Source of the DNA: Ramlibacter rhizophilus
Lineage (GTDB): Bacteria; Pseudomonadota; Gammaproteobacteria; Burkholderiales; Burkholderiaceae_C
Length of the DNA stretch: 64,000 bases
Direction of reading: 5' to 3'
Assembly (NCBI RefSeq): GCF_004681965.1
Contig: NZ_SMLL01000001.1
Coordinates: forward strand, 372,001 to 436,000
Both the position numbers and the translations under genes were made by a program. A model generated the notes under the pieces. That model searched no databases, was not told the origin of the DNA, and was given only the letters and a program-made list of their open reading frames with translations. Shown in pieces: positions 38,497-46,249 of this stretch. Position 1 is the first letter of the stretch; each line of letters starts with the position of its first letter.

Positions 38497-39843
38497 TCAG
38501 GGCCGCCCCTCCAAAACCCGATCCACCATCACCCCTGCCTGACCGAGGTAGTTCACCGGATCGCACATCGCCTCCAGTTGACTCCGGCTCACGTGCCGCG
38601 TGATCTCCGGTGTCTCCGACAGCACCTCGACCAGCGGCCGGCTTTCGGCCAGGGCCCTGCGGCACAGGTCATACACCAGGTCGTGCGCCACCTCGCGGCC
38701 GATGAAGGGACCCAGGCCCATCATCACTGCCTCGGACATCACCAGCCCGTGCGTCAGGTCGATGTTGGCGCGCATGCGCTTCGCGTCCACCTCCAGCCCC
38801 TTGAGCACGAACCTGGTCTGCATGAGCGCTCCGGAGATCAGGCAGAAGATCTCGGGCAGTGAGACCCATTCGATTTCCCAGGGCCCGGTGGAGCGCTCGT
38901 GGTCCGCCACCATCGCGTCCATCAAGGCGGCCGCGTGCTGCCGGGCCACCGAAACGTTGGCGTGGATGTACAGGCACGAGATGGGATTGCGCTTCTGCGG
39001 CATGGTCGATGACGATCCGCGGCCGTAGGCATAGGGCTCGAAGACCTCGGCCACTTCGGTCTGCATCATCAGCTTCACGTCCATGGCGATCTTGCCGAGC
39101 GAGCCGCCGACCAGGCCCAGGAAGGCGCCGACTTCCGCGATCGTGTCGCGCACGGTGTGCCAGGAAATCAGCGGCTGGGCCAGGCCGAGTTCCTTCATCA
39201 AGGCGGCCTGCGTTTGCATGGCGCCCTTCTCCAGCGAGGACAGCGTTCCGGACGCGCCGCCGAACTCCCCCATCAGCACCCGCGGCTTGAGCTGCTGCAG
39301 GCGCTCGCGATGGCGGTCGATGCCCGCGAGGATGCACGCCATTTTGTAGCCGAAGGTGATGGGCGTGGCCTGCTGCAGGTTGGAGCGGCCGATGATGGGC
39401 GTATCGCGGTACTTGCGCGCCAGCGCGGCCAAGGCGTCGGCGATCTCGTCGAGGTCCTGCTCGACCAGGGCCAGGCCTTCGCGCATCTGCAGCACGCAGG
39501 CGGTGTCGGTGATGTCCTGCGTGGTGGCGCCCCAGTGGCAGTACTCGCCCAGGCCGTCCCGGCAGTTCTCGTTGATCTGATTGACGACGGCGATGATGGG
39601 ATAGCCGATCTGCTCGGTCTTGGCCTTGAGCCTGGCCCAGTCGATCTGCCCGAGGTTGCAGTTGCGGACGATCTCGTCGGCCGCCTCGCGCGGGATGATG
39701 CCCAGCTCGCCCTGCACCTTGGCCAGTGCTCGCTCGATGTCCAGGTACTTGGCGGTGCGGTTCTCGTCGGACCAGACCTCGCGCATGCGGCGGTCGCTGA
39801 ACATATCGCCGAAGATGCGCGAATCGATGATGGTGGCTGCCAT
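38497..39843 (-). CDS. Class II fumarase/aspartase-superfamily lyase
   Basis: A 448-residue lyase of the fumarase/adenylosuccinate-lyase superfamily. The signature loop is GSSSTMPQKRNP (about residues 278-289), whose serine is the catalytic base, and HWGATTQDITDTA (about 91-103) supplies the second substrate-binding region. Size and the PQKRNP loop are close to 3-carboxymuconate cycloisomerase and adenylosuccinate-lyase-like proteins, but context argues against purine synthesis. It is the last gene of the Bug/PrpF/MaoC/CoA-transferase operon. The likely reaction is elimination from, or addition to, an unsaturated di- or tricarboxylate; the substrate is unknown. Confidence 0.87.
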   Translation of the reverse strand: MAATIIDSRIFGDMFSDRRMREVWSDENRTAKYLDIERALAKVQGELGIIPREAADEIVRNCNLGQIDWARLKAKTEQIGYPIIAVVNQINENCRDGLGEYCHWGATTQDITDTACVLQMREGLALVEQDLDEIADALAALARKYRDTPIIGRSNLQQATPITFGYKMACILAGIDRHRERLQQLKPRVLMGEFGGASGTLSSLEKGAMQTQAALMKELGLAQPLISWHTVRDTIAEVGAFLGLVGGSLGKIAMDVKLMMQTEVAEVFEPYAYGRGSSSTMPQKRNPISCLYIHANVSVARQHAAALMDAMVADHERSTGPWEIEWVSLPEIFCLISGALMQTRFVLKGLEVDAKRMRANIDLTHGLVMSEAVMMGLGPFIGREVAHDLVYDLCRRALAESRPLVEVLSETPEITRHVSRSQLEAMCDPVNYLGQAGVMVDRVLEGRP

Positions 39844-40042: not shown

Positions 40043-41233
40043 TCAAACGGCTTTGGCCTCGCGCAGCGCCGCGATCGCACCGGGGGCATACCCCAGTTCA
40101 CGCAGGATCAGGTCCGTGTGCTCGCCCAGTGCCGGGATGGGGTCCATGCGCGGACCATCATCCCAGCTGCCCGGAGGCAGCAGGGCCGGCAAGGGGCCCG
40201 CAGGCGAGCCGACCTCGGTCCAGCGGCCGCGCGCCTTCAACTGCGGGTGCCGCCACACGTCGTCCATGGTGTTGACTTGGGCACTGGCGATCTGCGCTGC
40301 TTCGAGCCGCTCGACAACCTGCGCACCCGTGAGCGGCATGAAAGCCTCGACGATGATCGCCCGCAGCGCATCCCGCTGAGCCACTCGCCTGAAGTTGGCG
40401 GTGAAGCGCGGGTCCTGCGCCAGCTCTGGCCGCTGCAGGACCTTGTCGCAGAAGCTCACCCACTCGCGTTCGTTCTGCAAGCCCAGCATGACATGGGTGC
40501 CATCGCCTGCGGGGAACAGGCCATACGGATAGATGGTGGCGTGGCTGGCACCGGTGCGAGGCGGGGGTGCTGCACCCTCGAACGCGTAGTACAGCGGGTA
40601 GCTCGTCCACTCGACCAGCGCCTCCAGCATGGAAATGTCGATGCGCCGGCCCCTGCCGGTCTGCCCACGCTGCAGCAGCGCGGCCAGTATGTTGCTGTAG
40701 GCGTACATGCCCGCGGCGATGTCGGCGATCGACGGCCCGGCCTTGACCGGCTCGTCGGGCGTTCCGGTCACGGAGACGAAGCCGGACTCGCTCTGGATCA
40801 GGAGGTCATAGGCCTTCTTGTCGCGGTACGTGCCGGTGCGTTGCGGGTCATCGCCATAGCCGGAGATGTCGCACACGATCAAGCTCGGCTTGAGTGGCGC
40901 GAGCCGGTCATAGCCCAGCCCCAGGCGCGCGGCGGCGCCGGGTGCCAGGTTCTGCACGACCACGTCCGCCTTCTCCAGTACCAGCCGCTCGAGGATGCGC
41001 GCGGCCTGCGGGTGCTTGACGTCCAGGGTGAGGCTTTCCTTGGACCGATTTGTCCAGACAAAGTGCGACGACAGGCCGCGCACGCGCTCGTCGTAGCCGC
41101 GCGCGAAGTCGCCCGATCCGGGACGTTCGATCTTGATCACCCGCGCGCCCAGGTCGGCCAGCTGACGGGTGGCGAAGGGCGCGGCGATGGCGTGTTCCAG
41201 CGTGACGACGGTCAAACCTTGCAGCGGCTGCAT
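40043..41233 (-). CDS. CaiB/BaiF (type III) CoA-transferase
   Basis: A 396-residue CoA-transferase. It shows LTVVTLEHAIAAPFATRQLADLGARVIKIERP, VWTNRSKESLTLDV, and GPSIADIAAGMYAYSNILAALLQR with the expected catalytic aspartate. The start at 41233 follows an AGGAAG site. In the operon it sits between a MaoC-type hydratase and the CitE-like remnant, the arrangement used for itaconyl- or citramalyl-CoA metabolism; it is therefore a candidate for activating a C5 dicarboxylate with succinyl-CoA. That substrate is inferred from context. Confidence 0.88.
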   Translation of the reverse strand: MQPLQGLTVVTLEHAIAAPFATRQLADLGARVIKIERPGSGDFARGYDERVRGLSSHFVWTNRSKESLTLDVKHPQAARILERLVLEKADVVVQNLAPGAAARLGLGYDRLAPLKPSLIVCDISGYGDDPQRTGTYRDKKAYDLLIQSESGFVSVTGTPDEPVKAGPSIADIAAGMYAYSNILAALLQRGQTGRGRRIDISMLEALVEWTSYPLYYAFEGAAPPPRTGASHATIYPYGLFPAGDGTHVMLGLQNEREWVSFCDKVLQRPELAQDPRFTANFRRVAQRDALRAIIVEAFMPLTGAQVVERLEAAQIASAQVNTMDDVWRHPQLKARGRWTEVGSPAGPLPALLPPGSWDDGPRMDPIPALGEHTDLILRELGYAPGAIAALREAKAV

Positions 41234-41259: not shown

Positions 41260-42120
41260 TCACCGAAGGACGGCGGTGGCATCCATGGCCAGCCAGCCCT
41301 CGTGGTCCGACGCGAACAGGCGCACGGTCTTGCCGTCGGCGGCCGGCTGGCCGTTCACCTGGAAGGGATGGAGGTCAAAGACCGGCCGCACGGCCTTGAA
41401 GTGGAAGCCGGCCACATCGGCATCGGGCATCTCGCGACGCAGCAGGTCCATCAGCAGTGTTGCGATCAGCGGCCCGTGCACCACCAGGCCCGGATAGCCT
41501 TCCACCTCGGTGACGTAGCGGCGGTCGTAGTGGATGCGGTGGCCGTTGAAGGTGAGTGCCGAGTAGCGAAACAGCAGCACGTCATCGGGCTCGATGGTTC
41601 GGCGCCAGCTCGCGCTGGTGGGGGCGGCAAGGGGGGGAGGGGGCACGTCGTGCGGCTGCTTGGCCTCTCGGTACACGATGTCGTGGAATTCGACCAGTGC
41701 TGCTTCGGCGGCGTCCCCGCAACGAACCTCGTGCCGCACCTTGACGAAGACCAGCTGGCCGCTGCGCCCGCTCTTGATGGTCACGTCGTCGATGGTGGAC
41801 GTGCGAACGGCACGATCGCCGATCCGGATGGGCGCTCGGAACTCGAACTGGCCGCCGGCCCACATGCGCCGGGGCAGTGGCACGGGCGGAAGGAAGCCGC
41901 CGCGCCTGGCATGACCGTCCGAACCGATTTCCGACTGGCGGTGCATGGGCAGGAAGTAGAGCCAGTGCCACAGGGGCGGCAGCAGCGCACCGGGTTCTTC
42001 TCCGCCCGCCGGGCGATCCAGGGTGGCCGAGAGGGCGCGCACGGGCGTCGGATAAATGGCGTCGCGAACCGTCTCGGTCCGGCCGATCCAGTCTCGCAGG
42101 TGAGTCAGGCCCTGGGTCAT
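41260..42120 (-). CDS. MaoC/HTD2-type acyl-CoA hydratase
   Basis: A 286-residue two-half hot-dog protein like mesaconyl-C4-CoA and itaconyl-CoA hydratases. The hydratase motif is in the C-terminal half: FNGHRIHYDRRYVTEVEGYPGLVVHGPL (about residues 193-220), with the His/Asp pair of HRIHYD near the active site. The N-terminal half carries the degenerate FAS1-like dehydratase domain. It begins eight bases after the PrpF-Bug fusion gene and precedes the CoA-transferase. It probably hydrates an enoyl-CoA formed by that transferase. Confidence 0.85.
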   Translation of the reverse strand: MTQGLTHLRDWIGRTETVRDAIYPTPVRALSATLDRPAGGEEPGALLPPLWHWLYFLPMHRQSEIGSDGHARRGGFLPPVPLPRRMWAGGQFEFRAPIRIGDRAVRTSTIDDVTIKSGRSGQLVFVKVRHEVRCGDAAEAALVEFHDIVYREAKQPHDVPPPPLAAPTSASWRRTIEPDDVLLFRYSALTFNGHRIHYDRRYVTEVEGYPGLVVHGPLIATLLMDLLRREMPDADVAGFHFKAVRPVFDLHPFQVNGQPAADGKTVRLFASDHEGWLAMDATAVLR

Positions 42121-42128
42121 GTGATTGT

Positions 42129-44165
42129 TCAGTTCGCTTCTTCAAGGACAAAGGCGCGCGGCTCGTGGGTGGTCAGTCGCCCCTTCGCCACCACCGCCTG
42201 CCACCGGTGCAGTTCGGCACTCACGCGCGTGGCCAGCGCCGACGGTGGTCCGGCCTCCACGCGGGCGCCCTGGCGCTCCATGCGGGCGACGACCTCAGGG
42301 TCCTGCAGCACGGCATTGAGCAGCCGGTTCAGGCGCAGGGCGACCGCAGCGGGCGTGCCGGCCGGCGCGAACAGCCCATACCACTGCGTCACCTCCACGC
42401 CATCGACGCCCGCTTCGGCGAGCGTCGGCACCTCGGGGAGCGCCGCGATCCGCTGCGGCCCCGCGACGGCCAGGGCGCGCAGGGTTCCGGCGCCGATGAA
42501 GGGAGAGGCCGTGAACAGGCTGGGAAACATGAGCTGGGTGCGGCCGTCGATGGTGTCGAGCACCGCGGGTGCGGCGCCCTGCGAGGTGCGGGATTCCATG
42601 CGCGTGCCCGTGCTGAGCTGGAACAGTTCGGCGGCAAAGTGCGGCGGCGTGCCATCTCCGGCGGACGCGTAGCGCAGGCTGCCCGGCGATCGTCGCAGGC
42701 GCTGCACGAGGGTATGCACGTCGGCGATGCCCGACTGCGCGTTCGTCACCAGCAGCGTCGGTGACGAGCCGATGAGTCCGATGGGCACGAAGCCCGCGAC
42801 GGGGTCGTAGCCGAGCTTCTGCAAGGCCGGATTCATCGCGTGCGTGCCGATGTAGCCGAGCATGAGCGTGTGGCCATCGGGCGCAGCCCGGGCGACGAAC
42901 TCGCTGGAGATGGCGCCGTTCGCGCCCGCGCGGTTGTCGACCAGCACCTCCTGCCCCAGCAAGGGCGCGAGCTTGCCCGCGATGATGCGGGCGATCGTGT
43001 CGTTGCCGCCGCCGGCCCGGGTCGGCACGATGAGCGTGACCGGCCGGCGGGACACGGCAGCCTCCGCTTCCACGGGCGCTTCGTCCGGGCGCGAGAACAC
43101 GTACTCGGGCAGGTGCATGTTCCCCTGCATGATCTTGCGCGCGGTGCGCACCAGCGCAGCCGAGGTGACCCGGGCGCTGTCGCCGCTTCCTTCCAGCTCC
43201 ACCTCGACGTCGATCCGCCCTGCCGGGTGCAGCAGCGTGAGCGGATAGCGCCCAGGCATGCGATGGTCGCCGCTGGCCACCGTACCGGGCAGCGCGAAGG
43301 CGCTGAGCACGCCGATGGCGCCCGTCACGGCATGCGACGCATGGCAGCGGCGCGGCGTGAAGTACCGCGAGGTGATGCTGTCCGGCGTGTCGCCGGCGCT
43401 GACCAGGACGGGCTTGGGAACGACGCTGTTCGAGACATCGCCCAGCCCCATCATCGCGCCGGCCTTCAGCCGCAGCGCTTCCAGCCGCTGCAGCAGCGCC
43501 GGCTCGGCGTCCAGCGCCTCGGGCTTCTCACGGCCGGTCACGCCCAGGTCGGCGGCGCGCACGATCATCAAGGGCATGGCCGCATCGATGCAGGTCACCT
43601 CGACGCCGTCGATCGTGTCGATGCGCCGGCCGGTGGGGAAGACCTGGCCCGTGACGGCGCCCCAGGCGTCGAGGAAATTCAGCAGGATGGGCGCGGCAGT
43701 GCCGGCGACACCGTCGATGCGCGCCTCGCCTTCGTAGGTCACGCGTCCGCCGGGGGTCCGCACCGTGACGTCGATGCGCGAGCCGGTGTTGACGTTGTAG
43801 ACCCGCACCCGCGTGGTCCCGTCCTGTGCGTCGATCAGACCCTGCTCGATGGCGAAGGGTGCCACTCCCGAGAGCATGTTGCCGCAATTCGGCCGCGTGT
43901 CCACCGAGCGATGCCCCACGCCGACCTGCGCGAACAGGTAGTCGAGGTCGCAGCCGGGCCGGCTGGAGCGCGACACGATGGCCACCTTGCTGTTCAGGGT
44001 GCTGCCGCCGCCCACGCCGTCGAGCTGCAGCGGATCCGAGGCGCCGATCGCCCCGATGAGGGCCTGGTCCCGCGCCTCTTCATCCTGCGGCAGCCACTCC
44101 TTCAGGAAGAAAGGGCCGCGCGAGGTGCCCGCGCGCATCAGCACACAAGGAAGGACTCGGTTCAT
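42129..44165 (-). CDS. PrpF-family isomerase fused to a Bug solute-binding domain
   Basis: One 678-residue frame with two parts. Residues 1-355 are a PrpF/DUF453 isomerase (2-methylaconitate isomerase or 4-oxalomesaconate tautomerase type): STLNSKVAIV with Lys60, RPNCGNMLSG with Cys94, and RRCHASHAVTGAIG. Residues 373-665 are a Bug solute-binding protein (RRPVTLIVPTRAGGGND, NRAGANGAISSEFVARAAPDG, QWYGLFAPAGTP), close to the receptor encoded just upstream. No signal peptide separates them, so the Bug part should stay in the cytoplasm. Its ligand-loop motif reads SRTSQGAAPA where the upstream paralogue has IPYKGSAPA. The ATG follows the upstream stop by one base. Confidence 0.88.
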   Translation of the reverse strand: MNRVLPCVLMRAGTSRGPFFLKEWLPQDEEARDQALIGAIGASDPLQLDGVGGGSTLNSKVAIVSRSSRPGCDLDYLFAQVGVGHRSVDTRPNCGNMLSGVAPFAIEQGLIDAQDGTTRVRVYNVNTGSRIDVTVRTPGGRVTYEGEARIDGVAGTAAPILLNFLDAWGAVTGQVFPTGRRIDTIDGVEVTCIDAAMPLMIVRAADLGVTGREKPEALDAEPALLQRLEALRLKAGAMMGLGDVSNSVVPKPVLVSAGDTPDSITSRYFTPRRCHASHAVTGAIGVLSAFALPGTVASGDHRMPGRYPLTLLHPAGRIDVEVELEGSGDSARVTSAALVRTARKIMQGNMHLPEYVFSRPDEAPVEAEAAVSRRPVTLIVPTRAGGGNDTIARIIAGKLAPLLGQEVLVDNRAGANGAISSEFVARAAPDGHTLMLGYIGTHAMNPALQKLGYDPVAGFVPIGLIGSSPTLLVTNAQSGIADVHTLVQRLRRSPGSLRYASAGDGTPPHFAAELFQLSTGTRMESRTSQGAAPAVLDTIDGRTQLMFPSLFTASPFIGAGTLRALAVAGPQRIAALPEVPTLAEAGVDGVEVTQWYGLFAPAGTPAAVALRLNRLLNAVLQDPEVVARMERQGARVEAGPPSALATRVSAELHRWQAVVAKGRLTTHEPRAFVLEEAN

Positions 44166-44166
44166 C

Positions 44167-45138
44167 TCAATCCGCGGTGAGCTTGGCGGCCTGCACAACC
44201 TTCTTCCACTTGACCTGCTCCTCCTGCACGTAGGTGCGCAGCTGGTCGGGCGACATCTTCGTCACCTCCAGGCCGTGCTCTTCGAGCCGCTTGACGACGG
44301 CCGGATCGGCCAACACTTCGTTGAGCACCTTGTTCAGCTGCTCCACGGTGGCGGCTGGCGTCTTGGCCGGCGCAAACAAGGCGTACCACTGCGAAACGTC
44401 GACGTTCTCGATGCCCTGCTCCTTCAAGGTCGGCACATTCGGCAAGAGGGCCGACCGCTTGTTGCCCGCCACGCCGAGGGCCTTGAGCTTGCCGCTCTTC
44501 ACGTAAGGCACCGAGGTGAACAGGCTGGGGAACATCACCTGCGTCTGCCCTCCAAGGGTGTCGTTCAGCGCGGGCGCCGATCCCTTGTACGGGATGTGCA
44601 GCAGGGGCGCGCCGGTGGCCAGCTTGAACATCTCCGCGGCGAAGTGCGGTGCGGTGCCATTGCCGGCGGAGGCATAGCTCACCTTGTCGGGCGTGGCCTT
44701 CGCGATGGCCACGAGTTCCGCGGCGTTGGCCGCCTTGACGCCGGGGTTCACCACCATCAGGGTGGCCGACGATCCGATCATGCCTACCGGCTCGAAGTCT
44801 TTTACCGGGTCGTACCGCAGCTTCTGCAGGGAGGGGTTCATCGCATGCGTGGCGATGTAGCCCAGCATGAGGGTGTAGCCATCGGGCGGTGCGCGCATCA
44901 CGAACTCGCTGGCGATCGAGCCGTTCGCGCCCGCCTTGTTGTCCACGACGATCGACTGCTTGAGCTTGGCCGACATCGCCTGCCCGAGGACCCGGGCCAT
45001 GGCATCGTTGCCGCCGCCGGCCGCGGTGGGCACGACGATGGTGATCGTCTTCTCGGGGTAGGCAGCCGCTGCCGGGCCGCAAGCCAGGACCGCGGCGGTG
45101 GCCAGCGCGTTCAGCGCCAGGAATTTTCCGATCTGCAT
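44167..45138 (-). CDS. Bug-family (TTT) periplasmic solute-binding protein
   Basis: A 323-residue receptor with a Sec signal (MQIGKFLALNALATAAVLAC, cleavage near AAAA-YPEK). Mature motifs: YPEKTITIVVPTAAGGGNDAMAR, VVDNKAGANGSIASEFVMRAPPDGYT, and HIPYKGSAPALNDTL. A TTGGAGA site precedes the ATG. It is the first gene of the operon and a close paralogue of the Bug half of the next gene, suggesting tandem duplication. Its ligand is presumably the carboxylate handled by the PrpF, CoA-transferase and hydratase genes downstream. Confidence 0.93.
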   Translation of the reverse strand: MQIGKFLALNALATAAVLACGPAAAAYPEKTITIVVPTAAGGGNDAMARVLGQAMSAKLKQSIVVDNKAGANGSIASEFVMRAPPDGYTLMLGYIATHAMNPSLQKLRYDPVKDFEPVGMIGSSATLMVVNPGVKAANAAELVAIAKATPDKVSYASAGNGTAPHFAAEMFKLATGAPLLHIPYKGSAPALNDTLGGQTQVMFPSLFTSVPYVKSGKLKALGVAGNKRSALLPNVPTLKEQGIENVDVSQWYALFAPAKTPAATVEQLNKVLNEVLADPAVVKRLEEHGLEVTKMSPDQLRTYVQEEQVKWKKVVQAAKLTAD

Positions 45139-45307: not shown

Positions 45308-46249
45308 ATGGCCCTCAACTTCAACCTCAACGACCTCCAGGCGTTCCGCGCGGTGGCTGAACTCAGCAGCTTCCGCAAGGCAGCTGCCGCCTTGCACGTG
45401 TCGCAACCCGCCTTCAGCCGGCGCATCGAGAAGCTGGAGGAAGCGCTGGGCGTGCGCCTGCTCGAACGAACCACCCGCCAGGTGAGCCTCACCTCGGTGG
45501 GTCGCGAGTTCGACCGCAAGGTGCAGCAGTTGTTGGACGACCTCGACCAGACCTTGCTGGGCATCCGGGGAGTGGCTGGCACCCGAATGGGGGAAGTCAC
45601 GGTGGCCTGCGTGCCGTCGGCCGCCTACTACTTCATGCCCAAGGTGATCTCCCGCTACCACGAGCGCTATCCGAAGGTGCGCGTGCGGGTCCTGGATGCG
45701 AGCGCGAACGAGGTCCTGCGCGCCGTCTCCGAAGGCGACGCCGACTTTGGCCTGAACTTCGTGGGCGGACAGGAGCCGGACATCGAGTTCAGCCCCCTGA
45801 TCGAGGAGCGCTTCGTCGCCGCCTGCCGGCGTGACCATGAGTTGGCGCGCAAGCGCAAGGTCTCCTGGTCGGAGCTTGCCCGTTACGACTACATCACGGT
45901 GAGCAAGTCTTCAGGGAACCGGCTGCTGCTGGACCAGGCGCTGTCCGGTCTTGCCGACCGGCCCCACAGCATCTATGAAACGCAGCATGTCACGACCATG
46001 CTCGGCCTGGTGGAAGCGGGACTCGGCGTGGCGGTGGTCCCGTCGATCGCCATGCCCGGCGCCGAGCATCCGCTGCTGGCGAGCGTGCCGCTGGTCGATC
46101 CGGTGGTCACGCGCAAGGTGGGCCTGATTCGCCGCAAGGGCCGCACCCTGTCCGCGAGCGCGGACCGGCTGTATTCGTTCTTCAGTGAGCTGAAGGTCGC
46201 ACCGCGCAAGGGCACCCCCAGAGCGTCCCGCTCACGAGTGACGCCGTAG
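45308..46249 (+). CDS. LysR-family transcriptional regulator
   Basis: A 313-residue regulator. The helix-turn-helix is FRAVAELSSFRKAAAALHVSQPAFSRRIEKLEEALGVRLLER (about residues 14-55); the effector domain starts with GEVTVACVPSAAYYFMPKVI. It is divergent from the Bug/PrpF operon and probably senses a carboxylate of that pathway. The 3' end overlaps the decayed merR fragment on the other strand by a few bases, marking the edge between the two modules. Confidence 0.9.
   Translation: MALNFNLNDLQAFRAVAELSSFRKAAAALHVSQPAFSRRIEKLEEALGVRLLERTTRQVSLTSVGREFDRKVQQLLDDLDQTLLGIRGVAGTRMGEVTVACVPSAAYYFMPKVISRYHERYPKVRVRVLDASANEVLRAVSEGDADFGLNFVGGQEPDIEFSPLIEERFVAACRRDHELARKRKVSWSELARYDYITVSKSSGNRLLLDQALSGLADRPHSIYETQHVTTMLGLVEAGLGVAVVPSIAMPGAEHPLLASVPLVDPVVTRKVGLIRRKGRTLSASADRLYSFFSELKVAPRKGTPRASRSRVTP

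Follow-up and report, generated by a model that had tools for sequence, protein, structure and literature searches.

A PrpF-type isomerase fused to a TctC/Bug receptor domain in Burkholderiales, with and without a predicted internal signal peptide

The fused gene and its product

The stretch of DNA analysed here, henceforth the window, spans 64,000 nucleotides of Ramlibacter rhizophilus and encodes on its reverse strand a protein that combines a PrpF-type isomerase with a TctC/Bug solute receptor (Table 1). The original prediction, made from the letters alone, described a PrpF enzyme joined to a full Bug domain in one frame, and this is what the frame holds: it is open for 678 codons from 44165 down to 42129 with no stop between the halves, and Pfam places PrpF (PF04303, E 1.2e-106) at residues 5-353 and TctC (PF03401, E 2.3e-52) at residues 391-661 of the window protein. 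The start codon lies one base past the stop of the upstream receptor gene (TGAGATG), and the genome of the window encodes no other PF04303 protein. A hydrophobic stretch was looked for in the window linker and none is present, in agreement with the claim that no signal peptide separates the halves; the linker as mapped covers the junction that had been anticipated near 43050-43100. The Bug half is indeed a paralog of the receptor encoded just upstream, with 53.6% identity, and the change of its ligand-loop motif to SRTSQGAAPA from IPYKGSAPA is genuine. A structure prediction of the full chain, which had been proposed as a check, brought out the linker, with pLDDT below 50 at residues 353-372, but left the mutual placement of the halves unfixed: at a pTM of 0.50 the inter-domain placement is uncertain, and so is the way in which the halves face each other.

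Throughout, state 1 denotes neighbouring separate prpF and tctC genes, state 2 a single frame that keeps the predicted ribosome-binding site (RBS), start and signal peptide of tctC, and state 3, to which the window belongs, a fused frame from which this stretch has been lost.

Table 1. Features of the fused gene and its neighbours in the window; T1 is the receptor encoded upstream
Feature	Position	Strand	Remark
PrpF-TctC fused gene, 678 aa	42129..44165	-	conserved as a fusion among relatives
PrpF half, residues 1-356	43098..44165	-	4-oxalomesaconate-tautomerase type
Lys60	43986..43988	-	aligned with LigU Lys66; invariant in 12 of 12 fused proteins
Cys94	43884..43886	-	aligned with LigU Cys100; invariant in 12 of 12 fused proteins
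Linker, residues 357-375 (more widely, about 354-375)	43041..43097 (43041..43106)	-	state-2 relatives have a predicted RBS, start codon and signal peptide there
TctC/Bug half, residues 376-664	42174..43040	-	without signal peptide
Residue 383, Arg	43017..43019	-	aligned with TphC Ser31, closing pincer
Loop 526-531, RTSQGA	42573..42590	-	exported relatives have IPYKGS, VPYKGS or the like
C-terminal tail 665-678 and stop	42129..42173	-	longer than the constant end of 45 state-2 proteins
Upstream exported TctC/Bug receptor (T1)	44167..45138	-	signal peptide and own GGAGAC RBS
MaoC-like dehydratase	41260..42120	-	few bases past the fused-gene stop; near 33/45 state-3 and 18/20 state-2 loci
Class III CoA-transferase	40043..41233	-	near 33/45 state-3 and 18/20 state-2 loci
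Adenylosuccinate-lyase/3-carboxymuconate-cycloisomerase family lyase	38497..39843	-	near 37/45 state-3 and 16/20 state-2 loci
Divergent LysR regulator	45308..46249	+	near 33/45 state-3, 18/20 state-2 and 8/8 separate-gene loci

The window protein passed the curated cut-off of the 4-oxalomesaconate tautomerase model NF033377 (490 bits against 440) and failed that of the 2-methylaconitate isomerase PrpF model TIGR02334 (191.8 against 440.55 bits). We take the LigU lysine and cysteine with which K60 and C94 align to be catalytic residues. Titles of PDB entries name the mutants LigU(K66M) and LigU(C100S). As judged by family score, fold and the aligned Lys and Cys, the PrpF half belongs to the isomerases of the 4-oxalomesaconate tautomerase/LigU class, and isomerase activity would be expected of it. 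The likeness to LigU and YbhH (NF033377; PDB 6p3j, 6otv) covers the common fold, the score and the aligned residues, whereas their solved chains are single-domain proteins of 350-365 residues and the window protein adds a receptor domain.

Gene neighbourhood

The MaoC-like dehydratase, the CoA-transferase and the lyase were found near none of the eight separate-gene loci, for which the flanks extended about 5 kb against up to 10 kb for most fused loci, and one of these eight falls in a looser MaoC cluster. An HpcH/HpaI lyase occurs at 46 of 74 loci under loose clustering, and at 8 of 45 state-3 and 5 of 20 state-2 loci under a stricter cut. In its make-up the gene set appears to resemble routes by which unsaturated polycarboxylates (itaconate or mesaconate, for example) are handled as CoA esters. 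Genes of the LigB or RraA-like families form the usual, though not strictly defining, context of 4-oxalomesaconate tautomerases; these are absent beside the window gene, whose operon, unlike that of LigU/YbhH, includes a CoA-transferase, a MaoC hydratase and a fumarase-superfamily lyase. Neither a LigB-type dioxygenase (eight matches in the genome) nor an RraA-like aldolase (three) lies within the window, so that the substrate may differ from 4-oxalomesaconate. On contig C11 of the genome of the window, G000 (135990-138750), LigB dioxygenase and RraA-like genes lie about 1.5 kb apart with no PrpF-family gene of their own, and perhaps represent a ring-cleavage cluster.

There is no TctA gene in the window, and three are found at distant places in the genome. 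Searching the whole of G000 with P0001 produced 112 matches, of which 111 concern just the TctC half; against only three TctA genes, this is a large set of orphan receptors. The passages of PMC5812351 that bear on this describe orphan receptors as common in the TctC/Bug family.

Distribution of the fusion

Each of the 120 database matches listed (of 2220, the query included) has both domains in 662-689 aa, and the others among these 120 are 74-91% identical to the query; the suggested search for further proteins with PrpF followed by a Bug domain thus found them in every match listed. Database entries of about 670 aa named '4-oxalomesaconate tautomerase' or 'PrpF/TctC' have the same architecture, and automatic names for it already exist. 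A family search of 299 genomes gave 47 that matched at E 1e-120 or better, comprising 13 with a fusion lacking a signal peptide (that of the window included), 25 with a fusion containing an internal one and nine with separate neighbouring genes; in all nine of the latter, tctC lies directly downstream of prpF. A search of the order matched 17 of 300 genomes at 1e-110 and recovered, besides the genome of the window, three fusions, all signal-less, one of which has a linker identical to that of locus L137. The PrpF-TctC fusion is a conserved architecture that recurs across Burkholderiales, and not a one-off. The same recurrence bears on the concern that an assembly or base-calling error joined two genes: nothing was found in its favour, full-length fused relatives occur in many separate assemblies, and on this ground we consider it excluded, with a probability close to nil.

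A single tblastn piece in plasmid records suggested a fusion in Rhizobium, which reading of the frames resolved into two genes; in four alphaproteobacterial plasmid records (L003, L012, L013 and L015) prpF and tctC are adjacent yet separate. Among the papers listed by a literature search, with subscription papers largely outside its reach, none dealt with the PrpF-TctC fusion or its states, and a search of the literature on nested genes gave nothing concerning the PrpF-TctC system by title.

Three states of the prpF-tctC junction

The best 80 of 165 relatives were kept, with identical cores removed and near-copies retained. Distinct fused frames number 45 in state 2 and 58 in state 3, the latter including the window (L004); its second copy, L005, is a 59th state-3 row that was excluded from later counts. 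A frame counted as state 2 if it was open and the 15-residue hydropathy within its linker exceeded 1.3; the GGAGAC motif played no part in the assignment. State-2 loci include L023, L027, L028, L030-L041, L043-L051, L053, L102, L104, L116 and L134. Examples of cultured species are Sphaerotilus mobilis and Albitalea terrae for state 2, and members of Variovorax and Hydrogenophaga for state 3.

An in-frame GGAGAC is present in the linker of all 45 state-2 frames, followed after 6 bases (43 frames) or 3 bases (two frames) by an in-frame start codon, which is ATG in 40 and GTG in five. The glycine codon of this motif is GGA in 45/45, whereas among all 3144 glycine codons in these frames GGA accounts for 5.2%. 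The alternation of ATG with GTG and the use of a rare codon point to a constraint on the DNA, as ribosome-binding site and start, and not on the protein. GGAGAC likewise precedes the tctC start in eight of nine separate-gene relatives, as well as T1 in the window. Downstream of the state-2 start comes a basic beginning and then a hydrophobic run, as in signal peptides. Counting cleavage from the F/W/Y-P-x-K start of the mature domain, alanine occupies position -1 in 33 and position -3 in 33 of the 45 frames, and in the remaining frames cleavage is likely to fall a few residues earlier. On these features, the state-2 frame is likely to be a two-product, two-compartment gene, and one frame apparently serving two compartments is a more unexpected find than the state 3 of the window.

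The cytochrome b-c1 polyprotein of Bradyrhizobium (fbcH) is made from a single frame, and its second protein crosses the membrane by means of an internal signal peptide. State 2 looks similar in having such a peptide inside one frame, but its first part is a soluble enzyme, and it retains in addition an internal ribosome-binding site and a start codon. The window gene, being in state 3, departs from fbcH in having lost the internal signal, ribosome-binding site and start altogether.

State-3 proteins link the end of PrpF to the mature TctC start by 9-36 residues without a signal stretch. A leftover internal start was considered for this state; GGAG precedes a start codon in 3/58 junctions, that of the window (GGAGGCTGCCGTG) among them, and this is unconserved and was taken as chance. 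The two states also end differently: all 45 state-2 proteins have a common shorter C-terminal end point (13 residues), whereas the tail counted from the same point is 21 residues long in 25 of the 58 state-3 rows, many of which finish in Leu-Asp or Leu-Glu.

Order of events

Phylogenetic analysis of PrpF unites the fused genes in one clade with the separate genes outside, with a support of 94 in a tree of 116 rows and 97/96 in a second tree of 63 of these rows, picked to thin near-copies; short rows were omitted from the trees. State 3 needs four changes on the PrpF tree, and the starred branches force at least three of them; not one of 200 bootstrap trees of the 63-row set has state 3 as a single clade. 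Its origins are the Oxalobacteraceae pair L100 and L105, L042, L112 as sister to the state-2 locus L043 (support 100/98), and the large clade that includes the window. The alternative to repeated loss, namely regain of an identical ribosome-binding site and signal peptide, seems unlikely. We are thus highly confident, as far as sequences can tell, that separate genes were first fused with the internal signal retained and that the signal stretch was then lost at least three times. A receptor captured through loss of a stop codon and a signal sequence had been envisaged, which is the right kind of history, but it would have taken two steps and not one.

The TctC tree, a quick one with SH-aLRT as its only support measure, groups 31 of 35 T1 rows with six of the nine separate-gene TctCs (87), the other four T1 rows standing apart, and places the fused domains in another group (82) that also includes the separate L052 and L054. 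Since T1 clusters with separate-gene TctCs, it is probably not the source from which the fused domain was copied; most likely T1 did not descend from the fused domain either. Capture of the upstream paralog, as first supposed, is not favoured by this tree, and the source is most likely the tctC gene that relatives have immediately downstream of prpF. At L052 (G258), prpF and tctC are separate, with PrpF outside the fused clade and TctC within state 2, which may reflect a gene that split again or was mixed by recombination. Between L002 and L081 the PrpF halves differ by a dN of 0.022 and the TctC halves by 0.199, a disparity that looks like separate histories of the two.

Compartment and separate exported copies

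For the TctC domain, the lysine fraction K/(K+R) lies at 0.46-0.84 in separate genes (n=9), 0.68-0.84 in T1 (n=35) and 0.58-0.81 in state 2 (n=45), against 0.10-0.46 in state 3 (n=58); the PrpF halves have medians of 0.12-0.20. Every additional loss lies below a state-2 neighbour: L112 (0.37) below L043 (0.75), L042 (0.35) below L041 (0.74), and the Oxalobacteraceae losses L100 (0.37) and L105 (0.46) below L023 (0.77). As a control, 44 further TctC-family frames from the loci have a median of 0.61, with five of the 44 at or below 0.46, and hence the sign is strong but not absolute. The frame L013:4968-6134, with a value of 0.12 despite a signal-like start, bears this out. Another TctC-family stretch, in a 493-residue stop-to-stop frame (L089:18881-20359, plus strand), has a value of 0.13, and is perhaps another receptor kept inside or merely arginine-rich.

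We read the lysine/arginine balance as indicating that export of the domain continues in state 2 and has ceased in state 3. The window protein is very probably located in the cytoplasm, as had been assumed for it; the linker is signal-less, the N-terminus of the PrpF half has no signal-like start by eye, and both halves are arginine-rich. The same absence of a signal-like start and the same composition speak against export of the whole fusion to work in the periplasm, an idea that could appeal to the fact that TctC proteins are normally exported and that we hold to be very improbable.

With T1 as query in 43 genomes, a separate homolog of at least 63% identity was found in 10 of 19 state-3 genomes, a chosen subset in which the genome of the window has T1, and in none of 24 state-2 genomes. 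In the other nine state-3 genomes, some of them metagenome drafts, no separate homolog of at least 50% identity was found, and these genomes seem to keep the fused domain as the sole close copy; completeness is not given for seven of the genomes in this search, which were reached through loci. A rule by which loss of export requires a separate exported copy is therefore not general, such a copy being seen in 10/19.

Changes in the state-3 receptor domain

When TctC distance is divided by PrpF distance, 943 state-2 pairs give 0.81, 36 separate-gene pairs 1.0 and 1629 state-3 pairs 2.42; in the 35 loci that have both receptors the ratio is 1.57 for T1 and 2.65 for the fused domain (576 pairs). 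The ratios for fused rows omit pairs with a PrpF distance of 0.05 or less. State-3 receptor domains change about three times faster relative to PrpF. This acceleration also fits relaxed constraint, and it is not mirrored in omega, the median of which is 0.112 for the state-3 TctC domain (134 pairs, range 0.011-2.67) versus 0.140 for state 2 (16 pairs). For comparison, omega is 0.068 for PrpF over the same 134 pairs and 0.073 for T1 (78 pairs). These pairs have PrpF at least 88% alike and a PrpF dS of 0.1-2, and the figures are rough because many dS values are high (near or above 1). By this measure the state-3 domain is under continued purifying selection.

These observations bear on the possibility that the receptor half is a passive relic left by loss of the signal peptide, whose removal would need a new stop codon. 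The coincidence of export loss with the roughly threefold faster change would suit such a relic, as would the separate exported homolog of 10/19 state-3 genomes, a possible replacement. An omega of about 0.11 is against it, as are the retention of the half in several lineages and the 9/19 genomes that lack a separate homolog of at least 50% identity, though some are drafts of unstated completeness. Moreover, none of the nine separate-frame genomes falls inside the fused clade, and as the family genomes were picked by score and not by an open frame, this means that no broken fusion was seen. We regard a passive relic as quite improbable.

Of the 120 columns conserved at 95% or more in exported relatives, the 33 rows of clade A have not kept 34 and the 21 rows of clade B have not kept 23. 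Residue 383 is alanine in 85 of 89 exported rows and in one of 58 state-3 rows; residue 527 is proline in 89/89 and 3/58, and residue 529 lysine in 85/89 and 1/58, respectively. The six-lineage agreement at residue 383 was matched by 1 in 20,000 random placements, a test that assumes equal site rates in lineages that are partly related. Residue 529, in the loop 526-531, aligns with Lys177 of TphC and Lys184 of TBP. In TphC, according to the relevant part of PMC8556258, Ser31 and Lys177 bond across the cleft upon closing. TBP K184D (8hkb), in which the equivalent lysine is replaced, was solved with terephthalate bound, going by PDB titles, so loss of that lysine need not abolish binding.

The ligand pocket, with columns hand-chosen from TphC contacts and neighbouring columns, has fared differently. 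In state 3 conservation is 0.82 in pocket columns versus 0.62 elsewhere (p 1e-7), and when the loop sites are set aside the pocket columns score 0.93 in clade A, 0.92 in clade B and 0.92 in state 2. Q594, W595 and the AGGGND and ASAG-GT-PH stretches are retained. It is this conservation that tells against a receptor half serving solely as a structural partner, which would stabilize or assemble the isomerase after ligand binding had been lost. Such a partner would be in keeping with the altered closing-loop residues in nearly all state-3 rows, the faster change of TctC relative to PrpF, the flexible linker and the drop of 95% constant pocket columns to 30/50 in state 3 from 40/50 in state 2 and T1; we deem it unlikely, if less so than the relic. 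That the TctC half retains ligand binding is, on the pattern of conserved residues, reasonably probable.

Proposed function and implications

The TctC half of the window protein has the domain and fold of TctC/Bug receptors such as TphC, TBP, AdpC, BugD and Bug27, but differs from them in being arginine-rich and without a signal peptide, in its altered closing loops and in having no TctA nearby. The reading we prefer overall, with a confidence slightly above even, is that the isomerase has domesticated a periplasmic receptor, which now serves it as a ligand-binding module in the cytoplasm. An exported TctC/Bug receptor gene directly downstream of prpF would have been joined to it in frame, giving state 2, whose frame would yield a long chain of PrpF, signal and TctC as well as an exported TctC that arises through internal initiation. 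Subsequent loss of the stretch with ribosome-binding site, start and signal would leave the one soluble cytoplasmic two-domain chain of state 3. In the window, a receptor half with altered closure would thereby sit on a flexible linker beside the isomerase, where it might sense or hold a metabolite of the operon. Opening and closing next to the enzyme, the TctC half could gate the isomerase or hold substrate locally; its ligand would be a di- or tricarboxylate that probably serves the operon as substrate, product or inducer. From the sequence pattern, such a regulatory or capture role is conceivable, at somewhat short of an even chance. An allosteric or substrate-channelling sensor, as first envisaged, would be compatible with the retained pocket and with purifying selection. 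More tentatively, we suggest a wider picture with state 2 as a conserved two-compartment gene, starting from which the receptor was moved into the cell in separate lineages to act there as a Venus-flytrap switch, gating or feeding the isomerase.

Fusions of chorismate mutase with cyclohexadienyl dehydratase offer a parallel: the part of PMC10520331 that deals with them presents these as exported, likewise rare, and with their compartment set by the export signal. The direction is the opposite one, with those enzymes sent out and the receptor of the window retained inside.

A fusion of a cytoplasmic enzyme to a periplasmic receptor should fail unless the receptor changes compartment. Each inferred step of such a change is found in living genomes, the last one repeated in several lineages, so that the path from secreted binding protein to intracellular domain is directly testable, with state-2 and state-3 proteins as natural controls for each other. 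The system also indicates that one gene annotated as '4-oxalomesaconate tautomerase' can conceal what is likely to be a second, exported product. If the two-compartment gene and the indoor switch are both true, the family would offer an observable path by which a secreted receptor becomes a cytoplasmic regulatory domain.
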